Shown here piece after piece: positions 9,871 to 33,780 of a DNA stretch of 64,000 nucleotides. The stretch's first letter is position 1; each line of letters opens with the position of its first letter. The translations under genes and the position numbers were made by a program. This stretch comes from Halanaerobium saccharolyticum subsp. saccharolyticum DSM 6643 (GTDB lineage: Bacteria > Bacillota > Halanaerobiia > Halanaerobiales > Halanaerobiaceae). The DNA is taken from contig NZ_CAUI01000005.1 in the NCBI RefSeq assembly GCF_000350165.1, positions 806,001 to 870,000 on the forward strand. The letters run 5' to 3'. Under the pieces are notes generated by a model. The model was given only the letters and a program-made list of their open reading frames with translations. It was not told the DNA's origin and searched no databases.

Positions 9871-10075
9871 AATATATTTAGTAAAAAAACACCAGTTCGC
9901 GACATACTGCTGTCACTTCCCCATGTTACTATTTAAATAGAAAGTAGTAATAGATAAAGATAATATTTCATCATTTATTTTTCTAATAAAAGGAAAAGTG
10001 TAATTAATCTAGAAATATATAATAATGATGTATATTTTTTAACTAAAGCCCAATATAAGAGGGGAAGTGGTAGCA
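9871..10075 (+). repeat. Duplicated leader/promoter region, copy A
   Basis: This non-coding stretch shares blocks with 24255-24419 (copy C) and 33571-33780 (copy B). With B it shares AATATATTTAG and a segment ending TTYGCGACATA. With C it shares TAATAAARGGAAAA, AACTAAAG, CAATATRA and the GGGGARTGKTAGCA ribosome-binding segment right before the start codon. It is the upstream region of the 200-residue unknown gene at 10076. Confidence 0.6.
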
Positions 10076-10675
10076 ATGGCCAAAAATAATCCATTCTTAC
10101 CTGCTAAGACCATAAATAAAACAGAAGATTATCAGCCTTTCTATAATTCCAAAGCATATTTAAAACAAAAAGTAGGTTCTTTAACTTATTTTAAGGATCA
10201 AATTCCTGAGCTCAGAAAAATTGCTGAAAAAGTAGGCTATCAAGACTTTAATCAGTTTATAAAACACCGTAAATTATGGCATAACTTTGATAGAAAAATT
10301 CCGATTAGTTATCTAACAGCAATAGGTGTGGAACTTGAAGTTTTAGAATTTACTATTGAACTTGACCAAAATGACTATCAAAAAGCTCTAAAAGTCCCAC
10401 GATATCCTAAATCATACATCATTCAAACTAGACCAATTCCTCTTGCCAGAAGACTTCCAGATAATATTTCAGAAGATAAAGCAATAGAATTAGTAAAAAG
10501 AAAGGCAATTATAGAAAATATAAGCTGTGTGATCAATTATCCATCTCTTAAAAAGATTTTTATTGACACTGATGGTTCAGTTTTACCTGCTTATTACCAA
10601 CCAGAGATCAAAATTAAAGGGAAATACATTGTTCCAAGCAAGATTAATGGTTATGAAAGTAATATAAGCTTATGA
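10076..10675 (+). CDS. Conserved hypothetical protein, paralog of the 24420-25019 gene
   Basis: The 199-residue soluble protein belongs to no family I recognise. It is closely similar along its whole length to the product of 24420-25019. Shared blocks include EDYxPFYNSK, DFNQFIKHRKLWH, ELDQNDYQKAL and KSYIIQTRP. No signal peptide or membrane segment is visible, and Lys, Tyr and Ile are abundant. GTG 10067 is possible, but ATG 10076 fits the GAGGGGA site (10-base spacing) and aligns with the GTG start of the paralog. Upstream lies the duplicated leader. A frameshifted gene follows 31 bases downstream. Function unknown; the duplication together with its leader suggests a unit copied as a cassette. 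Confidence 0.8.
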   Translation: MAKNNPFLPAKTINKTEDYQPFYNSKAYLKQKVGSLTYFKDQIPELRKIAEKVGYQDFNQFIKHRKLWHNFDRKIPISYLTAIGVELEVLEFTIELDQNDYQKALKVPRYPKSYIIQTRPIPLARRLPDNISEDKAIELVKRKAIIENISCVINYPSLKKIFIDTDGSVLPAYYQPEIKIKGKYIVPSKINGYESNISL

Positions 10676-17553: not shown

Positions 17554-18486
17554 TTGGATTTTAAAAATAATAGTTTTGATGCAAATAAAAACATAGATAA
17601 ATTTAAAAATGTTATTAAGAGTATAAAAAAAGCTTCCACCAATAAGGAGTATACAATTCAAAACAAAATAAAGAAAATTAAAGAGTCCTATATTAAAAAT
17701 TGGGAAGAAGAAAATCAACTTATCCTTAATAAAATTACAAAGCAAATTAATTTTAAATCTGGCATCCCCTTACCTGTTTTATCTATTTGTGGTAAGGGAA
17801 CGAGAGAAATAAGGTTTACAGAATATTTATCATATTTTCTTAATCCTAAAAATAGTCATGGGATTAGCGATAAACTTTTGAAATCTATATTCTCTCAAGA
17901 AGCTAAAAAACATAATTTGAGACCAGACTGGAATCAAGAAGTGGAAGTATTCTCAGAATTTAATCTAGGAGCTATAGAAAAAAATAATAAAAAAATTTAT
18001 GGTTATGCAGACATTGTAATTTTGTCTGATGATTTTATAATGATAATCGAACATAAAATATTAAGTAATGAAAGCGATCATCCGGATTCAGATTTAAAAC
18101 AGTTAGAAAGATATAATCAAATTTTAAAAAATAATAAGAAATTTAAAGATAGAAAGCAAATAAAAGTATATTTAGTTCCTGAAGTTTCTAATAATATTAA
18201 TAATGAGTGGAGTTCTATGACTCATCAAGAATTAGTAAATAAGGGATTAGAATTAATTAATGATAACACTTTATCTGTGACAGCAAAAGAAAATTTAATA
18301 CGACTATTAATGGATCTCGCAATTGGTCCTTATGAAATATTAGAATCAAATTTAACTAAACTTTTTAATTTAGCTTGTGATTTACAAAATAATGGGTTTA
18401 AATTAAATAAAGCATTAAAATTTGAAAATCTTTTAGAAGAAAATGAATTAATAATCGATTTATTAACTATTAGAAAAGGAGAGTAA
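17554..18486 (+). CDS. PD-(D/E)XK nuclease family protein (PDDEXK_4 type)
   Basis: The 310-residue protein has an N-terminal coiled helix, then the PDDEXK_4-like core. REIRFTEYLSYFLNPKNSHG supplies the entry helix with its acid. YGYADIVILSDDFIMIIEHK (about 149-168) gives D followed by E-x-K, the metal-binding set. The start is TTG 17554 with GGAGTGAGG upstream. The next gene begins 6 bases after the stop, so the two form a tight unit. The base composition is more AT-rich than addAB upstream. It is likely a defence or restriction-type nuclease. The specific system is not recognised. Confidence 0.75.
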   Translation: MDFKNNSFDANKNIDKFKNVIKSIKKASTNKEYTIQNKIKKIKESYIKNWEEENQLILNKITKQINFKSGIPLPVLSICGKGTREIRFTEYLSYFLNPKNSHGISDKLLKSIFSQEAKKHNLRPDWNQEVEVFSEFNLGAIEKNNKKIYGYADIVILSDDFIMIIEHKILSNESDHPDSDLKQLERYNQILKNNKKFKDRKQIKVYLVPEVSNNINNEWSSMTHQELVNKGLELINDNTLSVTAKENLIRLLMDLAIGPYEILESNLTKLFNLACDLQNNGFKLNKALKFENLLEENELIIDLLTIRKGE

Positions 18487-19275: not shown

Positions 19276-20685
19276 ATGAAAAATAAAAATTATTTTTGGA
19301 TTACTGCTAACCCTGACATATGGAAAATTGATAAAACGAAGAAAAATGAAAATAGATTTTATCCAGCCTATAATTCAAATAATAATAAACATAGAAAATT
19401 TGATAATTTTAAAAAAGCTGAAAAAGGAGATAAGTTAGTTTTTTACCAATCCTCTCCCATAAAAAAAATAAAAGGATTTGGTAAGGTGGTTAAAAGTTTT
19501 TATGAAAATCAAAATAATGAAGAAGGAATTGAAATAAAATTAAATTATTTGACAAATAAAACTAGTTGGAAAGATCTTAAAAATGATCCATTACTAAAAA
19601 ATAGTGAAATTATAAAGACAAATGCTCAAGGTAGTTTATTAGAATTAACCAAAAATGAATATAATAAAATAATGGAACTTTCTGAATTAAATTATGAAGA
19701 TATTTTAATTAATATTATTGATTTTAATGTTAAATTAAATTTAGATCAAAAATTACATTTCCCTCCAGCGATGAAAGAAAACTTAATCAAACGAATTGAA
19801 ACTAACCTAAAACAGGGCAAACATATTATTTTAATAGGACCGCCAGGAACTGGAAAATCAAAACTTGCCAAAGAGATTGCAGAGACTTATGTTGATAATA
19901 ATTATCAGATGGTGACTGCTACATCAGACTGGTCAACATTTGATACTATTGGAGGCTACAGGCCTAATAAAAATGGTAATTTAGAATTTAGTCCAGGAGT
20001 TTTTTTAGACTGCTTTAAAAATAATCATGCTCAAAAAAGTAAATGGCTTATTATTGATGAAATTAATAGGGCCGATATTGATAAAGCTTTTGGTCCCTTA
20101 TTTTCTGCTTTAACTGGTGATGAAATTACTCTTTCTTTTAAAGATGAAGGTGATAATTATATCAAGGTAGTTCCAGAAGTTAAAAATGAAAATATCGATG
20201 TCTTAGATAATATTTTTCAAATCAAAGATGACTGGAGAATAATTGCAACAATGAATACTCTTGATAAAACTTCACTTTATGAGATGAGTTATGCTTTTAT
20301 GCGCCGTTTCGCATTTGTGCCAGTTCCTATTCCAGAAGAAATTGATAAGGAATTATTAGAAAATTATTTTGATAAATGGGGTGAGGATACTAATGATACT
20401 AAAAATATAGTTGAATTATGGAGCACCATTAATGATTATAGAAAAATTGGACCAGCAATTGTCAAAGATATTATTAATTATCTAAGTGAAAATGATAATG
20501 ATTATGTTTCAGCATTAATTTCATATGTACTGCCTCAGTTTGAAGGATTGAGTTATGATAAATTAAATGACTTCTATAAGCAAATATCTAAATTGAATTT
20601 AAGTCTAAAAGAAGAACAAAAATATGAACTAAAAGCATTTATGACTGACTATTTTCAATTAAGAGAGGGAGAAGAAATTGGCTAA
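19276..20685 (+). CDS. McrB-like AAA+ restriction GTPase with N-terminal EVE domain
   Basis: Residues 1-140 form an EVE (PUA-like) domain: YFWITANPDIWKI, then KGDKLVFYQ and KKIKGFGKV. Such domains bind modified bases. The AAA+ motor has Walker A IGPPGTGKSKLAKE near 187, Walker B WLIIDEINRADIDKAFG near 257, and the sensor and arginine-finger region IATMNTLDKTSLYEMS plus AFMRRFAF. The likely role is the DNA-reading and motor subunit of a type IV restriction complex against modified DNA. It overlaps the mcrC gene by 8 bases. AGGAGT is 6 bases before the ATG. Upstream are defence-type nuclease genes. Confidence 0.88.
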   Translation: MKNKNYFWITANPDIWKIDKTKKNENRFYPAYNSNNNKHRKFDNFKKAEKGDKLVFYQSSPIKKIKGFGKVVKSFYENQNNEEGIEIKLNYLTNKTSWKDLKNDPLLKNSEIIKTNAQGSLLELTKNEYNKIMELSELNYEDILINIIDFNVKLNLDQKLHFPPAMKENLIKRIETNLKQGKHIILIGPPGTGKSKLAKEIAETYVDNNYQMVTATSDWSTFDTIGGYRPNKNGNLEFSPGVFLDCFKNNHAQKSKWLIIDEINRADIDKAFGPLFSALTGDEITLSFKDEGDNYIKVVPEVKNENIDVLDNIFQIKDDWRIIATMNTLDKTSLYEMSYAFMRRFAFVPVPIPEEIDKELLENYFDKWGEDTNDTKNIVELWSTINDYRKIGPAIVKDIINYLSENDNDYVSALISYVLPQFEGLSYDKLNDFYKQISKLNLSLKEEQKYELKAFMTDYFQLREGEEIG

Positions 20686-22018
20686 ACACAAGCTTAAACC
20701 TGAGGAAATGATTAAGGAAATAGCTGATATGTTAATTATTTATTTAAAACAGGGAAATACTGTTAAACTTGATTCTTATATAAAAAAGCTGAATCTAAAT
20801 ATCAATAATTTTGATCAGCTTCTTAGAATTCATTTTCTATTAAATAAAGATGTAATGAGTTTTATAGAAGAACTTCCTCATTTAATTAGAAATATAAAAA
20901 CTTCTACTCAGAAAAATAATAGAGAAGTTAATGGTGAAATACGAGGTAGAATTGACTGGCAGGCAACAATAGCTAACAGATGTAAAAATAATTTTAATGA
21001 CAAGAGCCGATTTGTCTGTCAGCAGGTGGATAAAGATTTTAATATTAAAGAAAATCTTGTTTTGAAGAAGTTTTTAAAGATTATTGATGAAATTTTGATT
21101 AATGATTTAAAAAGAAGCTGGTCTGATTATCATTGGCTTTCTAATTGGTTTGAAAATGATGGTTTATTTAATAGTTTTGATCAAATAATAAATAGAAATA
21201 TATATTTAAAAAGAATAAATTTGGATAATGTAATAGTCACGGATAGGATGATTAATGACAGCAAAAAAAGCAGAAATATTCTCTATAGAAAAGCAGCTGA
21301 ATTATTAAAATTATATTATAATTATGTTGAAAATAACATCTGGCAGGAAAATGAAGAAAAGATAATCAAATTACTAAATGATAGTTTCATTAAGCCCCAA
21401 AAAGACAGTGTACTCTTTGAATTATATTGGGTGATGAAATTAATTGAAACAAATACTAACAAATATAGTCTAGAATTATTAGATAAGAAAAGTAATCTGA
21501 CTGCAGAATGGAGCAAAGGGAATTATAAATACAGCCTCTATCACGACTCAACTGGATCTGATGAATTAAATTGGAAAGTAAAGTTAAGTGAAGTCGAAAA
21601 TAGCTGTAATTCTTATTTAAAAAGAAAAGCTTTAAGCTATAAAAATGCTAAAAAAATATCTAGTATTTTTAATTCTGAAATCACCAGTAGTTACTGGAAC
21701 GGTAGACCTGATATAATAATTGAAATTAGAAATAGATCCGATAATAGTTTAAAAAAGATAATTGTGGCTGAAGTGAAATATACCAGAAATAATGATACTG
21801 CTAAGAAAGGTCTTAAAGAACTTCTGGATTATATGTATTTAATTAAAGACAGTAACGAAAAATATCTGGATTTGAGCCAGAATGAGATTGAAATCGAAGG
21901 CTTATTATTAGTTGACCAAATTAAAAATAAGGATAATATTTTTAAAGCATTAAAGATTAAAAAAAGTCAAGATGAAATAAATTTTGAAAAATCATACAAT
22001 AAGAAAATTATATTTTAA
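20678..22018 (+). CDS. McrC-like nuclease subunit of type IV restriction
   Basis: The 446-residue protein starts with TTG inside the end of the mcrB gene. The N-terminal half contains GEIRGRIDWQATIANR and the FVCQQVDKDFNIKENLVLKK segment shared by McrC/DUF2357 proteins. The C-terminus holds the PD-(D/E)XK core WNGRPDIIIEI (Asp about 344) and VAEVKYT (Glu365, Lys367). McrC supplies DNA cleavage when driven by the McrB motor. The overlap and order mcrB-mcrC are standard for the family. Confidence 0.85.
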   Translation: MAKHKLKPEEMIKEIADMLIIYLKQGNTVKLDSYIKKLNLNINNFDQLLRIHFLLNKDVMSFIEELPHLIRNIKTSTQKNNREVNGEIRGRIDWQATIANRCKNNFNDKSRFVCQQVDKDFNIKENLVLKKFLKIIDEILINDLKRSWSDYHWLSNWFENDGLFNSFDQIINRNIYLKRINLDNVIVTDRMINDSKKSRNILYRKAAELLKLYYNYVENNIWQENEEKIIKLLNDSFIKPQKDSVLFELYWVMKLIETNTNKYSLELLDKKSNLTAEWSKGNYKYSLYHDSTGSDELNWKVKLSEVENSCNSYLKRKALSYKNAKKISSIFNSEITSSYWNGRPDIIIEIRNRSDNSLKKIIVAEVKYTRNNDTAKKGLKELLDYMYLIKDSNEKYLDLSQNEIEIEGLLLVDQIKNKDNIFKALKIKKSQDEINFEKSYNKKIIF

Positions 22019-22031
22019 ATATAGCTAATTT

Positions 22032-22255
22032 TATAAGATAGCATGTTAAATATTTAAAAAAGGAGTTGAAAATATGGGCAAAAATGATCAAAATGTTCAA
22101 GATAATCATGCTGATCAACTAAATTCAAATAATACTGATTTGAGTCATAATAATGATGCATATAAAGCTGCACAGGATAATCGTTCAGAACAATTAAATC
22201 CTAATAGCTCTAAATAGAGAAAAAAAATTTAATAACATTAACATGCTATCTTATA
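22032..22255. repeat. 18-bp perfect inverted repeat bounding a tiny gene
   Basis: TATAAGATAGCATGTTAA at 22032-22049 recurs as its exact reverse complement at 22238-22255. The 188 bases between them contain a complete 47-codon gene with its ribosome binding site. This may be the end repeats of a small non-autonomous element, or a long-range hairpin in the transcript. No transposase is present and no convincing target-site duplication was found. Confidence 0.75.
22074..22217 (+). CDS. 47-residue small protein with repeated Asn-rich motif
   Basis: ATG 22074 has AAAAGGAG 8 bases upstream and the frame runs 47 codons to TAG. The sequence repeats a motif: DNHADQLNSNN at residues 10-20 and DNRSEQLNPNS at 35-45, with HNNDAYKAAQ between. 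Small Asn-rich proteins of this DN..xQLNPN type occur widely and are often misannotated; their function is not known to me. It is very hydrophilic, with no Cys and no Trp, and probably disordered. It lies wholly inside the inverted repeat described at 22032-22255. Confidence 0.65.
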   Translation: MGKNDQNVQDNHADQLNSNNTDLSHNNDAYKAAQDNRSEQLNPNSSK

Positions 22256-22343
22256 TTTTCAAAAATAAAGTAAATGATTATTTGATTACTTATTTATATT
22301 AAAACTTTTTTAATAATCTAGAAAAAAATGAGGAGTTTTAAAA

Positions 22344-23111
22344 ATGAAAAAGATGACTAAAGCTAAAAAGTTTCAGGCCTGGATTAATCAACTAAAATCT
22401 TATCAGAAAAAAGCACCAGATCTTTTTAATGAAAATGTTAAAAAGTCAGATTCAGAATTTAAAATAGACCACTACTTTGATATTCTAGAGAATCTTGAAC
22501 TAGAACCAGGATGGCTGGTTGATTATCTCTATCTGCAGCAGAGACTGGGTGGGGAGCCAGTAATTATTGCCTATCCTGAGTCTAAAAAAACAGAATACCA
22601 AAAAATAATAAATAAAATAAATAATAATGAGCTTAAATCCAATGACTCAGAAAACATTATTAGTACTTTTTTAAACTATGATGATCTAGATAATTATTTG
22701 GATCACCTTATATTGGATGGAAGTGAAGAAAGCTATTTTCAATTTGTAATTTTAGCTACACTGGGATCTCAATTTGCTCTTTTCTGGCATGCTGCATATA
22801 ATGATCTGAAGTTTATCTGCACTCCAGAGGCAGCTGAAAAGCTAATAAAAAAAATTGGAGTAGAAGCTGAAGATATTGGCACTATGGAAAATCAGTTATT
22901 TGATCAGGAGAGCGTTGAAAAAATAAGAAAAATTGATTTTGAGCCCAAAATAAAGATTAAAGCAGATAAGGTAGTTGTTAGATTAGTCTTTTTTACCAAA
23001 TGGGGAGGATTTATCGAAGCAAAATATGTTGTTAAAAAGACATTTCCCCATCAAATAATCGAAAAAGAAACTAAAGTTTTAGTTGGATATGATTGTGGTT
23101 ATAATTATTGA
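22344..23111 (+). CDS. Hypothetical protein, 255 residues
   Basis: This soluble acidic protein belongs to no recognised family. It has a Lys-rich N-terminus (KKMTKAKKFQAWINQLKSY), a middle segment LDGSEESYFQFVILATLGS, and a C-terminal beta-rich region VVVRLVFFTKWGGFIEAKYV. No signal peptide is visible. The start has GAGGAG 8 bases upstream. It sits between the inverted-repeat element and a decayed mcrB end. It could be a relic partner of a former defence operon, but nothing in the sequence proves that. Confidence 0.65.
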   Translation: MKKMTKAKKFQAWINQLKSYQKKAPDLFNENVKKSDSEFKIDHYFDILENLELEPGWLVDYLYLQQRLGGEPVIIAYPESKKTEYQKIINKINNNELKSNDSENIISTFLNYDDLDNYLDHLILDGSEESYFQFVILATLGSQFALFWHAAYNDLKFICTPEAAEKLIKKIGVEAEDIGTMENQLFDQESVEKIRKIDFEPKIKIKADKVVVRLVFFTKWGGFIEAKYVVKKTFPHQIIEKETKVLVGYDCGYNY

Positions 23112-24254: not shown

Positions 24255-24419
24255 TAACTCCCCTATAATATCCTTTGGTTAAACTAAAGTTATTAATAAT
24301 CTTTGAGTTTATATTATCTGTTTAATAAAGGAAAAAAATCATTAATAAAGAAATATATATATATAGAAAAGTTAATTATAATTTTAACTAAAGTGTCAAT
24401 ATGAAGGGGAGTGTTAGCA
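24255..24419 (+). repeat. Duplicated leader/promoter region, copy C
   Basis: This region is similar to copy A (9871-10075): TAATAAAGGAAAAA, AACTAAAG, CAATATGA and GGGGAGTGTTAGCA directly before the start of the paralogous gene. A TATAAT occurs at 24377-24382. Confidence 0.6.
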
Positions 24420-25019
24420 GTGGGAAGAACTATTCCATATTTATCTTCCAGGAATATTAATAAAGTTGAAGATTATATACCCTTTTATAACTCAAAGATT
24501 TATTTAAAACAGAAATCAGGCAGTCTAAAATATTTTGAAAATCAAATTTCTCAAATTAAAAAGATTGCTGAAAAGGTCGGCTATAAAGATTTTAATCAGT
24601 TTATAAAACACCGAAAACTATGGCATGATTTTCAAAAAAAGATACCTATCAGTTATTTGAAAGCAATAGGTGTAAAACTGGATGTTTTAAAATTCACCAT
24701 TGAACTCGATCAAAATGACTATCAAAAAGCATTAGAAATTCCACTATATTCTAAATCATATATCATTCAAACCAGACCATTTCCTCTTACCAGAAGACTT
24801 CCCCAAAGAACATCAGAAGCTAAAGCCATAGAATTGGTCAGAAAAGAAGCTATTTTAAAAAATAAAAGCTGTGTAATTGATTATCCATTACTAAAAAAGA
24901 TTTTAATAGAAAGTGATGGCTCAGTAAAAACTACTTTTTACCGACCTGATATAAAAATTGAAGGAGAATATGTTATTCCAACTAAGATTAATGATTATAC
25001 TGGTGATATAAGTTTATGA
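24420..25019 (+). CDS. Conserved hypothetical protein, paralog of the 10076-10675 gene
   Basis: The 199-residue protein is nearly collinear with the 10076 product, with invariant blocks DFNQFIKHRKLWH, KIPISYL, ELDQNDYQKAL and SYIIQTRP and the same ending INxYxxxISL. No family is recognised and no membrane segment or signal peptide is seen. GTG 24411 directly abuts the AAGGGGA site, so GTG 24420 (9-base spacing) is preferred. That position matches ATG 10076 in the paralog. Terminated by a bidirectional hairpin. The two copies with their leaders lie about 14 kb apart in the same orientation and could recombine. Confidence 0.8.
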   Translation: MGRTIPYLSSRNINKVEDYIPFYNSKIYLKQKSGSLKYFENQISQIKKIAEKVGYKDFNQFIKHRKLWHDFQKKIPISYLKAIGVKLDVLKFTIELDQNDYQKALEIPLYSKSYIIQTRPFPLTRRLPQRTSEAKAIELVRKEAILKNKSCVIDYPLLKKILIESDGSVKTTFYRPDIKIEGEYVIPTKINDYTGDISL

Positions 25020-33533: not shown

Positions 33534-33568
33534 ATTATATAATAATAAAAATCATTTTGAAAATAAGG
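33534..33568 (+). repeat. 35-bp direct repeat, right copy (matches 25632-25666)
   Basis: It contains ATTATATAATAATAAAAATC followed by ATTTTGAAAATAAGG and is in direct orientation to the left copy. The stretch 33313-33533 before it holds nothing I can identify. Confidence 0.55.
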
Positions 33569-33570
33569 AG

Positions 33571-33780
33571 AATATATTTAGGTTATTTTAACAAAACACT
33601 AATTTGCGACATAATACTCTCACACCCCTGTGGTATTTTTTAATTGAAATTGCTTTTATTAAACTAAATTTGGACTGATAAAACAAGAAGCTCCAATACT
33701 GCCATATTCTGAATAAAATTATTAATGTAGAAAAAAAGGATTATTTATTAACGAAATAATATTATAAAGTTTTCTGGAGA
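33571..33780 (+). repeat. Duplicated leader, copy B, without its gene
   Basis: It shares AATATATTTAG, AAAACAC, TTTGCGACATA and the later AAAAAAAGGATTATTTATTAA with copies A and C. Here it is not followed by the 200-residue unknown gene, only by eroded sequence, suggesting a lost third copy of the cassette. Confidence 0.5.

Follow-up and report, generated by a model that had tools for sequence, protein, structure and literature searches.

A gene of 47 codons with its own ribosome-binding site lies between the two arms of a perfect inverted repeat in the window (the whole 64-kb stretch of Halanaerobium saccharolyticum DNA that was analysed), as a preliminary description had reported. The locus raises the question of what such an arrangement is for: whether the gene is genuine, and whether the arms are the ends of a mobile element, paired DNA sites for a protein, a stem in RNA, or a relic. 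The features of the bracketed unit, compared where applicable with those of G005 (the second genome of the genus in which it was found), are:

22032..22049, plus strand: left arm, 18 bp, with a conserved 15-bp core at 22033-22047, identical in G005
22060..22065, plus strand: ribosome-binding site AAGGAG, 8 nt 5' of the ATG (AAAGGAG also in G005)
22074..22217, plus strand: ORF of 47 codons for a hydrophilic peptide with two DN[HR]xxQLNxN motifs
22238..22255, minus strand: right arm, 18 bp, with a conserved 15-bp core at 22240-22254, identical in G005

The inverted repeat

The arms are 100% complementary over 18 nt and separated by 188 nt, exactly as first described; within them, 12 nt separate the left core from AAGGAG and 22 nt separate the stop codon from the right core. 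One perfect inverted repeat of at least 13 bp is ordinary for a window of this size (one observed in 64 kb at gaps of 30-500 bp, against a mean of 2.2 in 100 simulated windows with the window's dinucleotide frequencies), but a length of 18 bp is not: the longest repeat in any of the 100 simulations was 17 bp, with none at 18 bp for a gap of 30-500 bp. A chance repeat is rejected on the grounds of this length and of the presence of the unit in G005.

At up to three mismatches the 18-mer is found in the window only as the two arms (6 of 100 shuffles also yield at least two matches as loose as this). The search of the whole genome that had been proposed at the outset returned two exact copies and five places with three mismatches; a reversed control gave five places. 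A dif/XerCD module was considered, as the left arm ends in GTTAAAT. Dif sites consist of two 11-bp halves with a free spacer in between, and the candidate was rejected because it is the central 15 bp that are conserved here.

Conservation of the bracketed unit

The peptide is encoded in two of 12 genus genomes, the window genome itself and G005, and the G005 version is 81% identical over 47 residues. The same two genomes are the sole matches in a peptide search of 38 genomes of the order. A two-row profile run against the phylum (398 genomes) gives matches in 26 at E <= 0.5, of which only the window genome and G005 lie below 0.03, all others being at 0.037 or weaker. Protein scans with this profile yielded 128 candidate stretches in the genome_contigs collection and 58 in viral_contigs, none of them confirmed.

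The DNA of the arms is distributed in the same way. The 14-mer TAAGATAGCATGTT occurs in 2 of 12 genus genomes (own and G005), exactly twice in each and bracketing the gene, and the exact 15-mer ATAAGATAGCATGTT occurs in the same 2 of 38 order genomes and is absent from the other 36. Single-mismatch copies of ATAAGATAGCATGTT lie at nine places in eight other genomes of the order, against three for a reversed control, and form no pair (two copies in G014 are on different contigs). A DNA search with the whole unit finds matches at E <= 0.01 in 21 of the 38 order genomes; those of the window genome (7.8e-114) and G005 (2.0e-56) are strong, and the remainder (not inspected individually) are at most 58 bases long, the best with an E of 9e-7. 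The reservation attached to the original proposal, that the repeat might have no conservation in relatives, does not apply: the unit is present in one of the 11 other genus genomes.

Between the window and G005, blastn aligns 22029-22254 at 82% identity and stops at the arm ends on both sides; the flanking intergenic DNA has no blastn match, and similarity resumes in or near the neighbouring genes. The core-to-core distance is 192 nt in the window (from coordinates) and 190 nt in G005. Within the unit, the core is 15/15 identical in each arm (30/30 in total, all four arms being alike), compared with 33/48 in the interior noncoding DNA (P 3e-4, Fisher test) and 33/47 at third codon positions (P 5e-4); in view of this difference the arms are constrained. 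The repeat as originally delimited is perfect in the window; in G005 only its inner 15 bp are conserved, and the base pairs at the outer end (one) and the inner end (two) of the 18-mer are not fully kept.

Differences between the two ORFs fall 6/4/15 by codon position, with dN 0.115 and dS 0.755 (NG86). On this pattern of substitution the 47-codon ORF is evidently a genuine protein gene under purifying selection, and a spurious ORF is rejected on the same dN/dS evidence. The unit is, in short, a single-copy conserved module, a small-protein gene with two inverted 15-bp sites bracketing its translational unit; its conservation and the pairing of its arms rest on two species.

The peptide does contain the two DNxxxQLNxN repeats ascribed to it (DNHADQLNSN and DNRSEQLNPN). 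It has no match among the Pfam, NCBIfam and PADLOC models or the PDB sequences; PHROGs offers one family at E 0.46. AlphaFold predicts a single helix for it (pLDDT 74.9 on average, pTM 0.34), and the four further models score 57-61.

Neighbouring genes

Upstream of the unit, on the same strand, lie three genes that bear on its setting:

17554..18486, plus strand: PD-(D/E)XK nuclease family protein, further upstream (PDDEXK_4; PADLOC candidate PDC-S26)
19276..20685, plus strand: EVE domain and AAA_5 ATPase, McrB-like
20678..22018, plus strand: nuclease-like gene, 446 aa, upstream of the unit, McrC-like by position and by a D...E-K motif seen by eye

The 19276-20685 protein has the marks of an McrB-type ATPase, with AAA_5 (1.4e-22) and EVE (1.7e-10) above the Pfam cut-offs; its NCBIfam McrB match (1.1e-17, 63.9 bits) is far under the cut-off of 637. 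For the 446-aa protein nothing rises above cut-off in Pfam and NCBIfam (McrC DUF2357, PD-(D/E)XK), and it has no match in viral_contigs. It has relatives in 24 plasmid records, five of them with an AAA, MoxR or DUF3578 gene under the same match; from their names, we take 23 of the 24 to be haloarchaeal. The upstream pair is probably McrBC-like, the McrC label resting on position, the by-eye motif and the plasmid relatives. Known EVE-McrBC type IV restriction systems (PMC11090510, PMC7641849) share with this locus the EVE-AAA and nuclease-like pair; a DNxxxQLNPN protein is not mentioned in the accessible part of PMC11090510, and the main text of that paper nowhere uses the term 'inverted repeat'.

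Of the 12 genus genomes, only the window genome and G005 have the nuclease-like gene, and these are also the two with the unit; order and orientation agree between them. Along G005, an IS110 transposase gene is followed by the nuclease gene, the unit, genes for a DUF4268 protein (PADLOC candidate PDC-S11) and a C_GCAxxG protein, and a relative of the 255-aa gene that in the window lies directly 3' of the unit. The left neighbour of the unit has thus been kept, and its right neighbour is different between the two species. In the window the left core lies 14 bp after the nuclease stop codon and the next gene 89 bp after the right core; the corresponding distances in G005 are 126 bp and 28 bp. 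In G005 the nuclease match begins at residue 149 and is interrupted by two in-frame stops, and the 255-aa relative is split into two frames; the unit is intact there. The 255-aa gene is also present in G010, where the sequence upstream of it is a different one. Outside the genus, the two near full-length relatives of the nuclease in the phylum (G331 and G414) have no QLNPN-type motif in about 1.5 kb on each side, so that the small gene is no obligatory partner.

Several other elements were observed in the course of these comparisons. In G331, the nuclease relative is directly followed by a 17-bp perfect inverted repeat (L057, 1220-1403) that folds over its whole length (z -11.6). As a second case of the arrangement it was rejected, being the end of a whole-length hairpin without a QLNPN-type motif; it looks like a different, foldback-type element. 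A dispersed intergenic element, CACCAGTTTGCGACAT...CCCCTGTGTTAT, is present in three genomes, at these places:

Window: 9885-9942 and 33568-33642
G005 (L014, reverse complement): 10011-10093
L054: ~1367-1420

Its first 16 bases match two places in the window at up to two mismatches, and its full 40-base form has no window match at up to three. Positions 1689-1820 of the window are 87% identical to the G005 stretch that separates the 255-aa gene from the gene after it, and are perhaps another dispersed repeat. Two 202-aa proteins, alike by eye, are encoded at 10067-10675 and 24411-25019, the second without a Pfam match.

Relatives of the DNxxxQLNPN motif

Back-translated DNxxxQLNPNN picks out eight viral contigs encoding six distinct proteins, three of them small with two motifs or variants and three from longer frames with a single motif close to the start. 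A wider profile confirmed seven viral loci, one of them new, and with the new locus as query 5 of 72,556 plasmid records were found; among 50,697 phages there were 0 matches with it or with other members as query. These proteins form an unclassified DN[RH][SA]xQLNxN set (L091-L095 from plasmids, L041-L048 and L089 from viral contigs). For four of the viral-contig relatives, neither Pfam nor NCBIfam gives a match above cut-off, and no occurrence of the motif strings was found in the literature. In L091-L095 and L089 the motif is followed by a DAYW..RGxDERPxxW tail or something near it; this tail is absent from both genus peptides.

The window peptide carries DN[RH][SA]xQLNxN within a protein shorter than ~60 aa. 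Profile comparison gives 95% over 33 columns against the two-motif viral set (n=3) and 92% over 15 columns against a second set (n=6; five plasmid sequences and one viral contig). This supports a relationship of the peptide to the DNxxxQLNPN small proteins, if by a partly circular route, the relatives having been found via the motif. Clear defence genes lie near the motif gene in two of the five plasmid loci (a ThsB-type TIR protein close by in a Vibrio plasmid; a type IV restriction match, a UzuA match and an annotated AbiEii-type toxin family protein in a Thioclava plasmid), the other three being without a clear call.

The examined stretches around the motif relatives (all except L043 and L046) contain no exact inverted repeat longer than 11 bp. 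In this small sample, then, the brackets appear to be a feature of the Halanaerobium lineage and not of the motif set. The absence of such repeats around the relatives, and the occurrence of the arms in two species only, are what one would expect if the small gene were a defence-island gene in its own right, with the arms as a two-species relic, or old recombination edges, of no present function. This is improbable, in that 30 of 30 core bases are invariant while about 30% of the other noncoding and third-position sites have changed.

Mobile element or paired DNA sites as possible readings

The unit had been suggested at first to be a minimal mobile element, that is, a non-autonomous one with the arms as terminal inverted repeats and the small gene as cargo. 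The sharp ends of the cross-species match at the arms, the unmatched intergenic DNA beyond them and the greater conservation of the arms than of the interior all fit this suggestion. The resemblance is to a MITE (as described in the accessible part of PMC10969869): about 220 bp, with inverted ends, sharp homology edges and a small ORF inside. The unit differs from a MITE in being single-copy, in having the same neighbour in both species and no consistent target duplication, in containing a selected gene, and in that no source element was found. Each of the two genus genomes (of 12) that carry the unit has it once, the exact core is present in 0 of the other 36 of 38 order genomes, and neither several copies nor different positions between genomes were seen. 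(One MITE is present in 1 to 22 copies per genome, according to the same part of PMC10969869, so that a single copy does not by itself exclude a MITE.) The upstream gene is identical in kind in both species, and the ORF within the arms is under selection. Possible target duplications, judged by eye in flanks that are AT-rich throughout in both genomes, are TTT or TA in the window and TTA in G005, depending on where the ends are placed; no choice of ends gives the same kind in both. A partner element with the same ends was sought as a second use of the exact 15-mer in the 38 order genomes and was not found, and paired arms up to about 210 bp apart had no match in genome_contigs and viral_contigs (from which records of very near genomes may have been omitted). 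Copy number, shared upstream gene, lack of target duplication and selection on the ORF thus weigh against the mobile unit, which we regard as unlikely.

Alternatively, the arms may be paired DNA sites, either operators of a regulator or crossover sites at which a recombinase flips the segment (an inverton, in which an outside promoter would turn the bracketed gene on or off). A 15-bp core that is invariant in all four arms is what a protein-recognised site would show, and each core contains an imperfect palindrome, AGCATGTT (6/8 symmetric; by eye). The length of the arms falls within the 10-40 nt of the inverted repeats that surround the short segments of invertons (according to the available part of PMC11892184). 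Unlike invertons, the unit has been seen neither in inverted orientation nor with a partner recombinase, and what it contains is a gene and not an evident promoter: the orientation of the segment relative to the upstream gene is alike in both genomes (one assembly per species), the own genome holds no extra copies of the site above control, and tblastn of the window with one query each for a serine recombinase and the G005 IS110 transposase (tyrosine recombinases being left out) found no relative at E <= 1. Paired DNA sites are a serious possibility, if a rather doubtful one. A much more specific proposal, that a recombinase- or regulator-operated cassette uses its fixed inverted 15-bp sites to switch a small-protein companion of the EVE-McrBC-like system independently of the restriction genes, is very unlikely to be right as it stands.

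The arms as a proposed RNA stem

The reading that we favour, tentatively and at less than even chances, is that the arms form an RNA stem that isolates the small-protein message; paired DNA sites are its close rival. Transcripts of the small gene would arise by read-through out of the genes upstream, from its own weak promoter 5' of the left arm, or in both ways. In the RNA the arms would pair as a stem of 15-18 bp, closing the small ORF into a loop of its own with the ribosome site exposed, and the stem would shield the small-protein message or cut it out. The small protein would thereby be made independently of the upstream genes, and it may be an accessory or companion of the defence island, outside the core of the restriction enzyme.

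Both the window and the G005 sequence have paired arms when folded at minimum energy. The window fold has a z of -4.1 (0 of 200 shuffles as good), and that of G005 is only marginally better than its shuffles (z -1.7; 10 of 200 as good), so that predicted pairing is clearly above chance in the window only. All four cores are identical, which means that no compensatory change supports pairing, and the invariance of the core fits a sequence recognised by a protein at least as well as it fits pairing in RNA. The regulatory RNA structure that had been put forward together with the mobile unit is consequently allowed, on predicted folds, and somewhat favoured, but unproven.

A promoter-like match (9/12) at 21984-22011 would place the left arm in the transcript; such matches are common here, 10 being found against 5.2 (sd 2.5) in shuffles, or about twofold. 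No Rfam family is found in 21900-22400, and no simple short-loop terminator in 21900-22450. Among known messages, hok folds its 5' and 3' ends back on each other. The unit would be like hok in that the ends of a short mRNA pair around an ORF, and would differ from it in leaving the ribosome site free and in encoding a hydrophilic peptide that is no membrane toxin.

Significance

A conserved gene within invariant inverted sites offers a compact system in which to test how a small protein might be regulated separately from the defence genes next to it, and the set of proteins that share its motif merits a family model.
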